23,787 bases of DNA. Source: a virus. Below are positions 138-11,803 of the stretch, in pieces. The position numbers and the translations under genes were made by a program. The notes under the pieces are model-generated. The model saw only the letters and a list, made by a program, of their open reading frames with translations. It was not told where the DNA came from and searched no databases. The stretch is taken from IMG/VR virus record IMGVR_UViG_3300036819_000058, positions 1 through 23,787 of that record. The stretch is one strand, 5' to 3'. Every line of letters starts with the position of its first letter. Position 1 is the stretch's first letter.

Positions 138-377
138 TCATTTCAACCTCCGATTCTGACATGTGGCCCGCGATTCTGACGGGCGGTTCTGACCATGTTC
201 TCCGAAGCCGGGCGAGCGCACCACAGTGAGCTTATCGCGGCGGCACTCGCGCCACGACCACAGCGTGGCCTCGCGGCGGCTCATGCCGTGGTGGAGCGCC
301 ATGAGGTCGACGAGAAGGTCGAAGTCAATGCGCCTGGCAGGGTCGCCGCGGTGCCGAAAACTGACAACGTTGGTCAT
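138..377 (-). CDS. Small phage protein coupled to the integrase
   Basis: This encodes 79 aa. The ATG at 377 overlaps the integrase stop as ATGA, so translation is probably coupled. The N-terminal part (residues 1-54) looks like a folded domain, with an acidic/hydrophobic stretch IDFDLLVDLMALHHG and then REATLWSWRECR. The last 25 residues are encoded over the three TTCTGAC repeats and look like read-through into attachment-site DNA. In a free phage the C-terminus may differ, because the gene ends 12 bp from the tRNA. I do not recognise the function. Position suggests an accessory protein made with the integrase, or a remnant. Confidence 0.6.
   Translation of the reverse strand: MTNVVSFRHRGDPARRIDFDLLVDLMALHHGMSRREATLWSWRECRRDKLTVVRSPGFGEHGQNRPSESRATCQNRRLK
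151..193. repeat. Three direct repeats CG(A/G)TTCTGAC beside the attachment site
   Basis: CGATTCTGAC occurs at 151-160 and 171-180, and CGGTTCTGAC at 184-193, all in the same orientation and within 70 bp of the tRNA end. Short direct repeats flanking the core are typical arm-type binding sites of phage tyrosine integrases, and that is the likely role here. They also encode the repeated QNR residues at the end of the 138-377 protein. Confidence 0.5.
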
Positions 378-1732
378 GTCCCGCCCTCCTGCCGGCTGCG
401 GTTGCGCACCTCCTGCACCGCGACGCGTTGCTTGTCGCGGCGGCGCAGGTAACGCACGGTCGTCGCTTCCTGTTTCTCCGAGTGAGTGAGAAGCGCGCGG
501 ATGGCGCCGAGTTCGGCGCCGGCTTCCTCCGCTTCGGTGGCCGCGCCGGCGCGCGCGTCCATGTTCCAGACCGCGTCGGGAATACCGGCAACCCGCGCGA
601 TCGCGCGATACCACTTGCGATAGCTGCGCTCCTGCACCGCGTGGCCGTGCTCGCCCTTGACGACCGCGCCGGCGCGCTGCTCCTGCGGCACGGCTTCGAG
701 CAGCGGAAACAGCAACGGGTAGATGGTGAGATCGAAATTGGCCGGTGCCCGATATTTCGATTTCGACGTGCGCATGCGCCATTGCCAGCCGGGAATGTTC
801 TCCCAGGTGAAATAGCCGGTCCAGATCTGGCCGCCGTAGTCGATCGCCGCGGCGCCGCGGCGCACGGCCTTGTCGCGATCGCGCAGGGTCTTCGGCCGCT
901 CGCCGATGATGTCCTTGGGGCGCAGCACAAGCTCGAACTGCGTGGCGACGCCGATCGCCATATAGAGCATGCGGTCCGCCGGCAGCAGGCCGGCGCGCCC
1001 GAGATCGAGCGCCTTCTCGATGAAGGCGCGTGCCTGTGAAAATGTCATTTCCTCGGTGCGCGCGCCGCCTTTCTCGAAGCTGACCATGCTCGTCGCCTTA
1101 TCGAGATCGGCCAGGAGCGCCGCGCAGTCCGGCCGCCGCAGCGCGGCGTTGAAGCGCAGCACCGTCTTGAACATCGTCACGGCGTTGTGGGCGCGGTCGA
1201 TGCGCTCGCGACCGCCGGCAATCTTCGGCTGGCGCCAGAGGTCGTAGTAATCCTGCACGTCGAATATCGTCAGGTTGCGGATCAGCCGCTTGCCGATCGT
1301 GCCGCGAACGACCTTGAGACTGTCGAGATAGGTCCTGCGCGTGTTCGCCTTGACCTTGCGGAAGCGCGTGCGCGGATGCTGCTCGTACCAATCGCAAGCC
1401 GAGTCGACCGTGCCGTCGTAGGGCCGCAGCAGCGGCGCGTCCGCGGCGGCGTCGGCCGCGACCGCGCGCTGCTGCTCGTCGATCCACGCGAACAGGCGCG
1501 CGCTGTGCGCCTGGCAGAGTTCGATGAGCTCAGCCTCGGTTGCCTCGGGCGGCAACGCGATGCACGGATCCGGAAAGCCCATCGGGTCGCGCACCACGTT
1601 CTTCGCGTACCAATAGGGCAGGCGCTTGCCGAGCTCCGGGCGGTAGCGGCCGCCCTTGAGGCCTGGTGCTTTGCTGCGCGGGGGCATCGAAGTTTTCCCG
1701 GCCGTCTTCGGCGGTTGGTCGTGCGGGTGCAT
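374..1732 (-). CDS. int: Phage tyrosine integrase (tRNA-Pro type)
   Basis: A 452-aa site-specific recombinase that should integrate and excise the prophage at tRNA-Pro. Residues 100-215 form the SAM-like core-binding domain and 225-430 the catalytic domain. Visible catalytic residues are Arg271 (LRPKD), Lys324 (TSKSK), Arg394 in MDAR, His417 (LLTHS) and nucleophile Tyr428 (TTVRY). The first His of the HxxR box is Met391 here. I recall MDxR as common in alphaproteobacterial prophage integrases, so this is probably a family trait and not damage. The start at 1732 has an upstream AGGAAGGG about 11 nt away. The first 200 bp overlap the upstream excisionase-like frame. The gene ends next to the tRNA, as expected. 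Confidence 0.93.
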   Translation of the reverse strand: MHPHDQPPKTAGKTSMPPRSKAPGLKGGRYRPELGKRLPYWYAKNVVRDPMGFPDPCIALPPEATEAELIELCQAHSARLFAWIDEQQRAVAADAAADAPLLRPYDGTVDSACDWYEQHPRTRFRKVKANTRRTYLDSLKVVRGTIGKRLIRNLTIFDVQDYYDLWRQPKIAGGRERIDRAHNAVTMFKTVLRFNAALRRPDCAALLADLDKATSMVSFEKGGARTEEMTFSQARAFIEKALDLGRAGLLPADRMLYMAIGVATQFELVLRPKDIIGERPKTLRDRDKAVRRGAAAIDYGGQIWTGYFTWENIPGWQWRMRTSKSKYRAPANFDLTIYPLLFPLLEAVPQEQRAGAVVKGEHGHAVQERSYRKWYRAIARVAGIPDAVWNMDARAGAATEAEEAGAELGAIRALLTHSEKQEATTVRYLRRRDKQRVAVQEVRNRSRQEGGT

Positions 1733-4542: not shown

Positions 4543-4797
4543 ATGGGTGCGATCGCTCAGAGGATTCGCGCAGGGATGCGACGCAAGGGGCTCGGGCAGA
4601 GTGACCTTGTGAAGCAGTGTGGCGCGCCGAAGAACCTCGTGTCCGACTGGGTGCGGGGCAAACGTGCCGTGAGCGCGACCTATCTGCCGCGCGTGTCCCG
4701 CGCCCTCGAGATTCCGATTTTCCAGATTGCGCCGCGAAAATTGCGGCCGCTGCTCGCGGCTCACGAGGCCGACGTGCTGCGGCGCGCGGCGGCTTAA
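4543..4797 (+). CDS. Cro-like Xre-family regulator
   Basis: 84 aa, a single helix-turn-helix domain: RIRAGMRRKGLGQSDLVKQC, then APKNLVSDWVRGKRAVSATY and a helix LPRVSRALEIPIFQI. Size and divergent orientation to the repressor suit Cro or another early antirepressor. ATG at 4543 lies 5 bp after operator O5 and has no clear Shine-Dalgarno, so translation may be leaderless or weak. It would open the rightward early transcript. The Cro role is inferred from context. Confidence 0.78.
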   Translation: MGAIAQRIRAGMRRKGLGQSDLVKQCGAPKNLVSDWVRGKRAVSATYLPRVSRALEIPIFQIAPRKLRPLLAAHEADVLRRAAA

Positions 4798-4880: not shown

Positions 4881-4889
4881 TGTGGATAA
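4881..4889. promoter_or_regulatory. Consensus DnaA box
   Basis: TGTGGATAA is an exact match to the complement of TTATCCACA. It is single here, in the 145-bp gap after the Cro-like gene, which otherwise shows no gene. A second exact match lies at 7025. Confidence 0.4.
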
Positions 4890-5707: not shown

Positions 5708-5850
5708 GCGCGCTGCAACGGGCATGGCGGTGGCTTGCGGGGCTGGACCGCGCGCAGCTTCGGGCGGACCTCCTGACCGCCACGCTAGTCGTTTTTGCGG
5801 TGGTGGTGATATCGGCCAGCATCGCGGTTGTGGTCGCGGGGATCCGATGA
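5704..5850 (+). CDS. Small single-pass membrane protein
   Basis: 48 aa from a TTG at 5704 that overlaps the RlpA-like stop as TTGA. The stop overlaps the next gene as ATGA. Residues 1-22 are basic and amphipathic (RAWRWLAGLDRAQLR), and 23-46 form one transmembrane helix (LLTATLVVFAVVVISASIAV). The overlaps on both sides support this start even though it is TTG. It could be a holin or pinholin-like partner of the RlpA-like protein. Function unproven. Confidence 0.6.
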   Translation: MSALQRAWRWLAGLDRAQLRADLLTATLVVFAVVVISASIAVVVAGIR

Positions 5851-6476
5851 GCGACTGGCCGTTCGGAACGCTCAAGCCGTTTTCCTATGACCTGATCATG
5901 GTCGACCCGCCGTGGCCGACGACGTTGCGATCGCCCAAGGGCGAGGGCAAGAGCTTCACGCGCCACTACGGCGCAATGAGCTTCGAGCAGATCGCGGCGC
6001 TGCCCGTCGGCCAGCTCGCCAGTAAAAACTGCGTGCTGATGCTGTGGGCCACCTGGGGTCTGCTGCTGCACGGCGGCGATCCGAAGCGGCATTTTGCCGG
6101 CGCCGATGCCGGGCGCTCGCCGGTCGGCGAGACGATGCAGGGCTGGGGCTTCCGCTACGTCACCGGCGGCCCGTGGCTCAAGCGCACGGTGACCGGCAAG
6201 CTTGCCTTCGGCTGCGGCTACCGGCTGCGCGATTGCAACGAGCCCTTCCTGCTGGGGGTTACCGGCGCGCCCGTCACGTCGCGGCGCGAGCGCAATCTGA
6301 TCGAGGGACTGCGGCGTGAACATTCGCGCAAGCCCGAAGAGGCCTTCGCCTGGTGCGAGCGCCTGATGCCGGACGCTCGCAAGCTCGAGTTGTTCTCGCG
6401 CCAGTCGCGCCCGGGCTGGGACAGCTGGGGCCTCGAGGCCGGCAAGTTCGATCCGGTCGTGCAGGTGGCGGCATGA
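5847..6476 (+). CDS. MT-A70 family DNA adenine methyltransferase
   Basis: 209 aa. The catalytic DPPW motif is at residues 20-23 (YDLIMVDPPWPT). It is followed by MSFEQIAALPVGQLA and an LMLWATWG strand, and later by GFRYV, GCGYRLRDCNEPFLLGV and the basic EHSRKPEEAF segment, all usual for phage MT-A70 enzymes. These add a methyl group to N6 of adenine from S-adenosylmethionine. No partner restriction enzyme is nearby, so it more likely protects phage DNA from host restriction or tunes gene expression. ATG at 5847 overlaps the previous stop; its own stop overlaps the next ATG. Confidence 0.9.
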   Translation: MSDWPFGTLKPFSYDLIMVDPPWPTTLRSPKGEGKSFTRHYGAMSFEQIAALPVGQLASKNCVLMLWATWGLLLHGGDPKRHFAGADAGRSPVGETMQGWGFRYVTGGPWLKRTVTGKLAFGCGYRLRDCNEPFLLGVTGAPVTSRRERNLIEGLRREHSRKPEEAFAWCERLMPDARKLELFSRQSRPGWDSWGLEAGKFDPVVQVAA

Positions 6477-7591
6477 AGTCGCTCGCACGGATCGACGAGG
6501 AGAAAGCCGCGCGCGAGCGCAAGCGCGTGTGGCGCTGGTGCCGCCGCGAGAACGGGTTTTCCGATCTGCCGCGCTGGCGCGTCGTCGCGGCGCGCTGCGA
6601 GCTGCCGCTGTTCCAGGTAGTCGCCTTCGTCAATCGTCTTGAAGAGGTCGCCAACGATGCCGGCAACAAAGGGCTCGGCCGCGGCGAAGTCAGCCATTTC
6701 GATGCCGCCGAATTTGCCGCCGCGCTCGACATGGCCGGCGCGGAGGCCGAGCGCATCTTTGCAGCTCTCGAGGAGGGCGGCTGGGTCTGCGACGGTCACG
6801 TCGCCGACTTCTGGAATCGCAACAAGGACGAAGAGGACGACACGGCGGCGCTGCGGCAGCGGCGCAAGCGTGCCCGCGCGACGGTGCAGAAGTTTCTGGC
6901 GCCGCTCGCGCGCATGGGGCTTATCGCGGCCGCCTTGCGCACCGACCTCGAGAGCCGGTTGCCGTCGCTCAAGACGATGGCCGACGTCGAGCTGTTCGCG
7001 CTGGTGGTCGAGCTTGAGCGCGCTTTATCCACACGTCAGGCCGTCACGCGTGACACCCGCCGTGACTCCGTGACTGTCACTGGAGAGAAGAAAACACAAA
7101 GCTCTTCTGCTGCTGTGGACAACAGCGGGACCACAGGGTGCAGCGGCACGGAAGGCCTTCAATCAGGGCAGGGCGGTGGGGAAAACCCCGCAGCGAGCGT
7201 CACGCGTGACTCCCGGACTGTGGAGGAACCGGTGCCCGACGAAACGCAGATCGAGGAGGCGCGGCTCTGGCTCGAGACCGAGGGCGTGCGCTTCGTCGTC
7301 GAGCTGGCGAACGAGCCGCGCACGCGCGCCGCGATGCTGCTCGAGCGCTGGGGCCGCGACCTCGACGATCCGGTGCTGATGGTCAAGATCGTCGCCGGCG
7401 CCGCCGAAACCAGCGCGCGCGGCGTGCGCTTTAATTTTCTGATCGCCGACCAGGTCAAGCGCTGGGTCGGACACAAGCTGCACGGCGCGCCGCTGCCGCT
7501 GATGCCGCCGAGCCCACGCGCGGGGAATCGCGCATTGGTGCTTGCCACCGACGCGGCCGCCGAGCCGCTCAAAAAAGCCGCCAACGACTAA
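6473..7591 (+). CDS. Putative phage replication initiator with internal origin
   Basis: 372 aa. The N-terminal domain (1-190) is basic and helical, with a winged-helix look typical of phage replisome organisers (RRENGFSDLPRWRVVAARC, LFQVVAFVNRLEEVA, then GGWVCDGHVADFWNRNKD). Residues 183-256 are a Ser/Thr/Gly-rich linker without predicted fold. The C-terminal part (257-350) is helical (EEARLWLETEGVRFVVELA...). The linker DNA holds DnaA boxes and GTCAC iterons, the lambda gene O arrangement. No helicase or helicase loader is in the window, so host DnaB would have to be recruited. Assignment rests on layout and sequence character, not a recognised family. ATG at 6473 overlaps the methyltransferase stop. 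Confidence 0.65.
   Translation: MKSLARIDEEKAARERKRVWRWCRRENGFSDLPRWRVVAARCELPLFQVVAFVNRLEEVANDAGNKGLGRGEVSHFDAAEFAAALDMAGAEAERIFAALEEGGWVCDGHVADFWNRNKDEEDDTAALRQRRKRARATVQKFLAPLARMGLIAAALRTDLESRLPSLKTMADVELFALVVELERALSTRQAVTRDTRRDSVTVTGEKKTQSSSAAVDNSGTTGCSGTEGLQSGQGGGENPAASVTRDSRTVEEPVPDETQIEEARLWLETEGVRFVVELANEPRTRAAMLLERWGRDLDDPVLMVKIVAGAAETSARGVRFNFLIADQVKRWVGHKLHGAPLPLMPPSPRAGNRALVLATDAAAEPLKKAAND
7025..7210. other. Candidate phage replication origin
   Basis: TTATCCACA at 7025-7033 is a perfect DnaA box and TGTGGACAA at 7114-7122 differs by one base. The 12-bp palindrome GTCACGCGTGAC occurs twice, at 7043-7054 and 7199-7210. Extra GTGAC/GTCAC units lie at 7062-7066, 7070-7074 and 7076-7080. 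A purine/A-rich stretch (7083-7100) lies between. All are inside the linker of the initiator gene. Confidence 0.6.
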
Positions 7592-10879: not shown

Positions 10880-11803
10880 ATGGGCGCGCTTGTCGATCCG
10901 ATGGCCTCGGTGCGGGCCTATCTGGCGGCCGAGAAGTCCAGCGCCACCAGGCGCGCCTACAAAAGCGACTTCGACCACTACACCGCCTGGTGTGACACTC
11001 AGCAATTGCAGCCGCTCGGCACGCCGCCGATCGACGTCGCCCGCTATCTCGCCCAGCTCGCCGACGGCGGGTTGAAGACGTCCACCATCGTCCGGCGCGC
11101 CTGCGCCATCCGTTACGTCCACAAAGCCGCCGGCCTCGAGCCACCGACCAACGCCGAAGGCGTCAAGGCGGTGCTGCGCGGGATCCGGCGCACACTTGGC
11201 GCCAGGCCTTTGCGCAAGGCGCCGGCGACGGCCGCGGCAATCGCCGCCATGCTCGAGCAGCTCCCGACAACTCTCTCCGGATTGAGGGATCGCGCGCTCC
11301 TGCTGATCGGTTTTGCCGCGGCCTTGCGCCGTTCCGAACTTGTTGACTTAAAAGTCAACGACGTCGAGCGCCGCCAGCGCGGCGTCGTTCTGCATATCCG
11401 CCGCTCGAAGACCGACCAGGAAGGCCGCGGGCAATCGGTTCCGGTGCCGAGCGGCCGCGCGCTCAGACCGGTCGAGGCGCTCGACGCCTGGCTGAGCGCC
11501 GCCGGAATCGTCGAGGGCCACCTTTTTCGCCAGGTCGACCGGCACGGACGCGTCGGCGCGCGCGCGCTTAGCGGCCGGTCGGTGGCGCGCATCGTCAAGC
11601 GCGCGGCGAAAGCTGCAGGTCTCGACGAGTCCACGTTCTCCGGCCACTCGCCGCGCGCCGGCTTCGTGACGTCGGCGCTCGAGGATGGCGTCGACGCGCT
11701 CAAGGTCATGCAGATCACACGCCACGTCGATCCGAAGAGCCTCGCTGCGTACGACCGCCGCGAGCGCGAGCTCGACGATCATGCCGGGAAGGGGTTTCTC
11801 TGA
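10880..11803 (+). CDS. Second tyrosine recombinase (XerC/D-like)
   Basis: 307 aa. Residues 8-95 are a SAM-like core-binding domain (SVRAYLAAEKSSATRRAYKSD). The catalytic domain (110-300) shows the full set: Arg150 (ALRRSEL), Lys177 (RRSKTD), His256 and Arg259 (GHSPR), His282 (TRHVD) and nucleophile Tyr291 (AAYDRR). It is clearly different from the integrase at 374-1732, being shorter and of the kind seen on alphaproteobacterial plasmids and phages. Possible jobs are multimer resolution, DNA inversion or movement of a nested element. The stop overlaps the next ATG as TGATG. Confidence 0.92.
   Translation: MGALVDPMASVRAYLAAEKSSATRRAYKSDFDHYTAWCDTQQLQPLGTPPIDVARYLAQLADGGLKTSTIVRRACAIRYVHKAAGLEPPTNAEGVKAVLRGIRRTLGARPLRKAPATAAAIAAMLEQLPTTLSGLRDRALLLIGFAAALRRSELVDLKVNDVERRQRGVVLHIRRSKTDQEGRGQSVPVPSGRALRPVEALDAWLSAAGIVEGHLFRQVDRHGRVGARALSGRSVARIVKRAAKAAGLDESTFSGHSPRAGFVTSALEDGVDALKVMQITRHVDPKSLAAYDRRERELDDHAGKGFL

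Follow-up and report, generated by a model that had tools for sequence, protein, structure and literature searches.

A candidate replication origin within a phage initiator gene and the GTGAC iteron it shares with other phage initiators

The stretch of viral DNA analysed here (the window, 23,787 bases) carries a cluster of repeats at 7025-7210 that very probably represents a theta replication origin of the phage lambda O/SPP1 kind, embedded in the gene for P0001, its own presumed initiator, which stands for a new protein family. The origin-like anatomy of this region, its conservation at the DNA level within the P0001 family and the association of its iteron with phage initiator genes are established in this work. 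Three elements go beyond an earlier note on this DNA, namely an AT-rich tract, a basic protein segment encoded at 6854-6877, and the occurrence of the same repeat in many unrelated phage initiator genes.

The P0001 gene and its repeat cluster

The record corresponds to a podovirus-like prophage or a fragment of one, with genes for integrases, repressors, an MT-A70 methyltransferase, terminase, portal and capsid. Two tyrosine recombinases are encoded at 374-1732 (minus strand) and 10880-11803 (plus strand), the second separating the early genes from the terminase. The candidate initiator gene P0001 (6473-7591, plus strand, 372 amino acids) is an open reading frame with homologues in two further records, L003 and L005, and with a structure model. 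Its start overlaps by 4 bp the gene of an MT-A70-type DNA methyltransferase (5724-6476, plus strand; Pfam MT-A70, E=2.8e-28), and a methyltransferase gene of this type also neighbours the initiator in L005 (2429-3307). Next to the P0001 gene, neither a helicase nor a loader for one could be recognised.

The protein is made up of a winged-helix-like N-terminal domain, followed by a basic segment, a linker and a helical C-terminal domain. The N-terminal domain (residues 31-118, 6563-6826, plus strand) is predicted to be a winged helix; it is modelled at a pLDDT of about 80, with helices and short strands ordered as in that fold, and Foldseek returned weak matches to winged-helix regulators and phage replication proteins. 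The basic segment RQRRKRAR (residues 128-135, 6854-6877, plus strand), which we propose as the iteron-recognition segment, aligns with an RxRRxRxR segment found upstream of GTGAC arrays in other initiators, and R128, R130, R131, R133 and R135 are invariant in the alignment of the three family members. The C-terminal domain (residues 257-337, 7241-7483, plus strand) is modelled as helices, at a pLDDT of 66-80 for residues 250-310 only, and may serve in partner binding or helicase loading.

Consistent with the view of the earlier note that the protein is not recognisably O, P0001 has no match in Pfam at E<=1, the lambda O family Phage_rep_O included, and none in NCBIfam. More specifically, neither collection gave a sequence-profile match to the DUF1376, Phage_rep_org_N, DnaD-DnaB_2 or DnaT families. 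The best PHROG is 21423 (E=0.007), of unknown function, and hhalign against initiators bearing GTGAC arrays gave probabilities of 28%, 2.5% and 36%. A Foldseek search of the PDB returned no significant match and a sequence search of solved structures nothing meaningful, while a structure search of BFVD gave one borderline match, the unnamed protein A0A3S6HD99 (E=3e-3).

The earlier note had described one exact and one single-mismatch DnaA box, two palindromes 156 bp apart and three additional GTCAC/GTGAC units in the linker coding region, and all of these were recovered. The exact DnaA box TTATCCACA lies at 7025-7033 (plus strand), with counterparts in L005 and L003, and the single-mismatch box TTGTCCACA at 7114-7122 (minus strand), comparable to TGTGGACAA, which occurs twice in L005; a weaker DnaA-box-like sequence, TTTTCCCCA, is found at 7177-7185 (minus strand). 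The palindromic iteron GTCACGCGTGAC, of which L003 and L005 hold exact copies, is present on the plus strand at 7043-7054 and 7199-7210 and absent elsewhere in the 23,787-base record. The three single units (GTGAC at 7062, GTGAC at 7070 and GTCAC at 7076) form a GTGAC unit and a GTGAC-T-GTCAC element spanning 7062-7080 (plus strand). Altogether, five units fall within 7043-7080, with the second palindrome following at 7199. The candidate DNA unwinding element is an AT-rich tract at 7079-7112 (plus strand), which occupies an equivalent place in L003 and L005. It contains the AT-richest 30-mer of the gene (7079-7108, 60% AT against 33% in the genome), which begins directly 3' of the GTGACTGTCAC element. 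A GGGGAAAACCCC palindrome at 7178-7189, between the AT-rich tract and the second iteron, was seen in neither L003 nor L005. Another exact DnaA box TTATCCACA is situated at 4881-4889 (minus strand), just 3' of a small repressor gene (4543-4797).

Chance is excluded as the source of this clustering. The linker holds seven GTGAC/GTCAC units within 170 bp, and windows shuffled at Markov orders 1-3 contained at most 6, with 0/900 reaching seven. Shuffling of synonymous codons within the gene yielded P = 0.0008 for seven units in 170 bp and P = 0.0005 for two exact palindromes (0.045% of trials). Furthermore, the TTA inside the exact DnaA box is the sole TTA among the 35 Leu codons of the gene; across the phage only 1.4% of Leu codons are TTA, and the probability that LST is spelled TTATCCACA is ~2e-4. 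Judged from the sequence, the DnaA boxes at 7025-7210 are under selection at the DNA level.

Conservation of the repeats in two relatives

The window, L003 and L005 are the three known members of the P0001 family; searches with the whole protein and with the N-terminal domain, covering viral contigs, species genomes and phage and plasmid records, returned these two relatives and no more. L005 was retrieved by a DNA pattern alone (GTCACGCGTGAC near TGTGGAWAA) and not by its protein. Overall identity of the two relatives to P0001 is 41% and 51%, and the N-terminal domain of L003 is 58% identical to that of P0001. Across the family the N- and C-terminal domains can be aligned and the linkers cannot. 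The earlier note had predicted that the repeats would be kept while the encoded residues change, and this holds in both relatives, in which exact palindromes, a DnaA box and the AT-rich tract are retained.

Each of the two relatives carries two exact GTCACGCGTGAC palindromes in its linker. In L003, TTTTCCACA occupies the position of the DnaA box of the window; L005 has four exact TTATCCACA boxes and two TGTGGACAA sites, and its DnaA boxes use both TTA codons. Measured from the start of the DnaA box, the palindrome begins 18 bp further on in the window, as it does in each of the two L005 modules, and 30 bp further on in L003; the gap between box and palindrome is 9 bp in three modules of two phages (the window and L005). 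The GTGAC-N-GTCAC element followed by GAGAAGA in the window recurs in L003 (4243-4253) and L005 (4019-4029), and in 3/3 family genes the AT-richest 30-mer comes directly after this element. Beyond its initiator gene, L003 contains three additional exact copies of GTCACGCGTGAC (4879, 6872 and 11570), one of them within the next downstream gene, which are possibly secondary sites.

A shared iteron and its pairing with a basic segment

Viral contigs were scanned for an array pattern consisting of GTCACGCGTGAC and then two GTGAC units at short gaps. At least 120 viral stretches matched the pattern; a control in which palindrome and units were reversed matched 5. A tail-assembly gene accounts for 29 of the 119 loci analysed among the matches listed; since they all represent this one phage gene, these loci were excluded as a single inherited case. 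The array in this gene (GTCACGCGTGAC with two GTGAC units, TLLSRVTSPR; for example, L013:6246-6306) is probably one inherited coincidence.

Among the matches listed, the remaining array genes mostly correspond to PHROGs for replication initiation, primosomal protein, DnaD-like loader and replisome organizer; by Pfam, DUF1376 is found in 19/80, alongside DnaT, DnaB_2 and Phage_rep_org_N. The motif R-x-[RKAQ]-[RKQE]-x-[RK] occurs shortly upstream of the array in 70 of the 88 non-tail loci listed, compared with a similar basic motif in ~18% of unselected stretches, a rough background that includes non-genes. The N-terminal domains of 51 non-redundant array genes among these matches form 12 clusters unjoined by BLASTP. 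In 58 such non-redundant genes, the palindrome lies in the VTRD frame 53 times and in the SRVT frame 23 times; because it is read in two frames across phages, the DNA rather than the peptide is conserved. For the same listed matches, the palindrome centre is nearly always GC, even in copies beyond those demanded by the search, and AT content 25-50 bp 3' of the array is 10% over the local mean (SE 1.5%, 58 genes). DnaA boxes are 16-fold enriched per base at the listed arrays, yet are present at only 4/58, and were therefore not considered characteristic of GTGAC arrays in general. Arrays of this kind are also carried by the cultured Gordonia phages DumpsterDude (gene 67) and BritBrat (gene 87). 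Three box-plus-palindrome matches (L006, L008 and L009), which do not lie in recognisable initiator genes, were taken as chance.

We define a GTGAC iteron cassette as at least three GTGAC/GTCAC units in 150 bp, one or more copies of GTCACGCGTGAC in the linker, and RxRRxRxR upstream; the P0001 gene has all three. For the relationship between segment and repeat, 80 loci were collected by the DUF1376 N-terminal domain alone, blind to repeats, and the segment following the domain served to type 70 non-redundant genes. Three or more GTGAC units in 150 bp were present in all 18 ERQRRxRERR genes (exact palindrome in 15/18), whereas among the 52 genes with other segments three units occur in 4 and the palindrome in 0. 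The ERQRRxRERR segment thus predicts GTGAC arrays (18/18 vs 4/52, Fisher P=3e-13). Other segments of DUF1376 genes have partners of their own, KAKASADARW being paired with GCAATGCGAACGCA at 22-bp spacing, NGKKGGRPRK with AACCCA and RLKRHREER with CCTGCAACG. A fifth pair, with few examples, joins [SI]AAGKAS to GTTCAA in the Rac YdaU gene (L137:6120-6977) and in phages of Bordetella, Pseudomonas and Moraxella (L222, L224 and L228); these GTTCAA repeats might mark the Rac origin.

On the tree of DUF1376 N-terminal domains, the ERQRRxRERR type switches 11 times, at least 5 of them on well-supported branches. In phylogenetically independent pairs the array tracks the segment in 4.7/5 and never goes the opposite way; with only five such pairs, the median P of the sign test is 0.06, which leaves the tree test by itself short of significance. 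The N-terminal domains of L179 and L192 are 91% identical and those of L170 and L168 90%, and segments and repeats differ within each pair.

A segment profile built from non-DUF1376 genes recovered 17/18 ERQRRxRERR-type DUF1376 genes at E<3e-4 and no other type above E=3. Among 579 targets the P0001 family came next, weakly (window E=0.045, L005 0.12, L003 0.18), the window's P0001 ranking 19 of 579 and one chance ORF standing ahead of the family. A profile of the segment only scored RQRRKRAR of P0001 at 11.9 bits (i-E 0.006), and this short profile did not find L003. From these profile scores, the segment that the GTGAC iteron would require is therefore present in P0001, statistically weakly so. 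Taken together, we think it rather probable that many temperate-phage initiators contain a portable cassette of a basic segment and its own in-frame iterons, exchanged as a matched unit between related and unrelated N-terminal domains. With similar, modest confidence, the window's P0001 gene would be one carrier of this cassette, to which DnaA boxes were added.

Initiator-gene origins have so far come to light in individual phages, one after another. Should the pairing hold, sequence would suffice to predict the origins of phages and prophages by the thousand that are as yet uncharacterised, origin specificity would be assignable to about 10 residues, and a change of replication specificity with an unchanged initiator domain would be explained; the protein key and the DNA lock would travel jointly because they overlap in one gene. 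In the literature searched, which largely lacked subscription papers, the GTGAC iteron and a segment-iteron pairing were found nowhere described, and the palindrome turned up in one paper, where it serves as primer for the E. coli msr. If confirmed, the pairing would, as far as that same literature goes, amount to a new general rule.

Proposed mechanism, alternatives and known systems

In the proposed mechanism, P0001 copies would bind the GTCAC-GC-GTGAC palindromes and the single GTGAC units, likely through residues ~128-135, and host DnaA would bind the TTATCCACA boxes beside the iterons. The AT-rich tract at 7079-7112 would then be opened, and the helical C-terminal domain of P0001 may assist helicase recruitment, with loading as in lambda (PMC7466680) and SPP1 (PMC6316719). 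We consider this explanation likely as a whole, from the origin in the P0001 gene and iteron binding through DnaA and opening of the AT-rich tract to helicase loading. We are less confident that RQRRKRAR (residues 128-135) reads the iteron than that the region is an origin, and lean only slightly towards the former. This segment is the likeliest reader because a similar segment goes with the same iteron across unrelated N-terminal domains.

The origin may be as proposed while the N-terminal winged helix reads the iteron and the basic segment contributes non-specific affinity, a reading that we regard as rather unlikely. Winged helices usually hold sequence specificity, as would be expected from lambda O, and no part of P0001 is better conserved than its N-terminal domain. 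Against this stand the DUF1376 domains that are 90-91% identical and paired with different iterons, and the at least 12 BLAST-unrelated N-terminal domains that share the GTGAC iteron. Since segment and repeat are exchanged as one unit, specificity would not come from the winged-helix domain alone. It is also possible that segment and repeat are merely linked, without recognition.

The other alternatives concern the nature of the repeats. An operator cluster for autoregulation or for another regulator, instead of an origin, would suit 12-bp palindromes, which fit a dimeric regulator, and the three further copies outside the gene in L003; it appears improbable, given that the sites lie in mid-coding region, 550-740 bp past the start codon, adjoin DnaA boxes and an AT-rich tract, and reside in replication initiator genes across phages. 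The sharing of the palindrome by phages of distant hosts and by unrelated proteins might point to a host protein, instead of the phage initiator, as the binder of GTCACGCGTGAC. This is highly improbable, as the palindrome varies together with a segment that the phage encodes, other segments in sister phages go with other repeats, and a scan of bacterial genomes for box plus palindrome gave only 2 stretches, 0 of them in recognisable initiator genes. Finally, selection might act on the linker peptide, with the DNA repeats as a by-product, as 6/6 linker palindromes in the P0001 family are read in the VTRD frame. We give this reading hardly any credence; at phage codon usage VTRD is encoded as GTCACGCGTGAC with a probability of 0.019 per copy, yet all copies are exact, and other phages show the SRVT reading and single GTGAC/GTCAC units in several frames and on both strands.

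Several plasmid origins, including P1 oriR, pSC101 and RK2, bring initiator iterons, DnaA boxes and an AT-rich region together; they lie outside the initiator coding sequence, and their Rep proteins belong to another family. In lambda O/ori-lambda and the origins of Stx phages, iterons and an AT-rich tract lie mid-gene, and linker length varies with iteron number (PMC7466680). The earlier note had invoked the logic of lambda gene O, and anatomically this was borne out, the P0001 gene having mid-gene repeats with an AT-rich tract. Unlike the lambda system, P0001 is not detectably related to O, its iteron is GTCACGCGTGAC, and DnaA boxes adjoin the iterons. SPP1 gp38/oriL has direct repeats and an AT-rich unwinding element inside the organizer's own gene (PMC6316719). 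The P0001 gene similarly holds repeats plus an AT-rich candidate unwinding tract, but it encodes another protein with other repeats. SPP1 has a second origin, oriR, whereas within the P0001 family only L003 has extra palindrome copies. P0001 shares with the DUF1376 (YdaU-like), DnaD-like and Phage_rep_org_N initiators of the ERQRRxRERR type, among them those encoded by DumpsterDude gene 67 and BritBrat gene 87, the order of N-terminal domain, basic segment, linker with GTCACGCGTGAC/GTGAC and C-terminal domain. In contrast, its N-terminal domain matches none of theirs, and DnaA boxes are rare at their arrays (the 4/58 of the matches listed). The E. coli K-12 Rac YdaU and lactococcal TP901-1 Rep genes resemble P0001 in having linker repeats in a phage replication gene, but with GTTCAA as the YdaU repeat, an A-rich repeat in TP901-1, and other pre-linker segments. 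In its mode of action the P0001 gene would thus resemble the lambda-O/SPP1 intragenic origins, and by sequence P0001 stands outside O and every described initiator family.

Two further observations were made in other phages. An AC-rich tract of the CACCAGACACCAGACACC type lies 3' of the iterons in L145, L147, L168, L179, L188, L192 and L204; it spans several segment types, independently of iteron type, and could be an unwinding or loading element. In addition, two GTCACGCGTGAC palindromes, one TTATCCACA box and the segment DRQRRHRQRQ reproduce the arrangement of the window in an unrelated protein, an actinophage-like initiator (L007:1-778).
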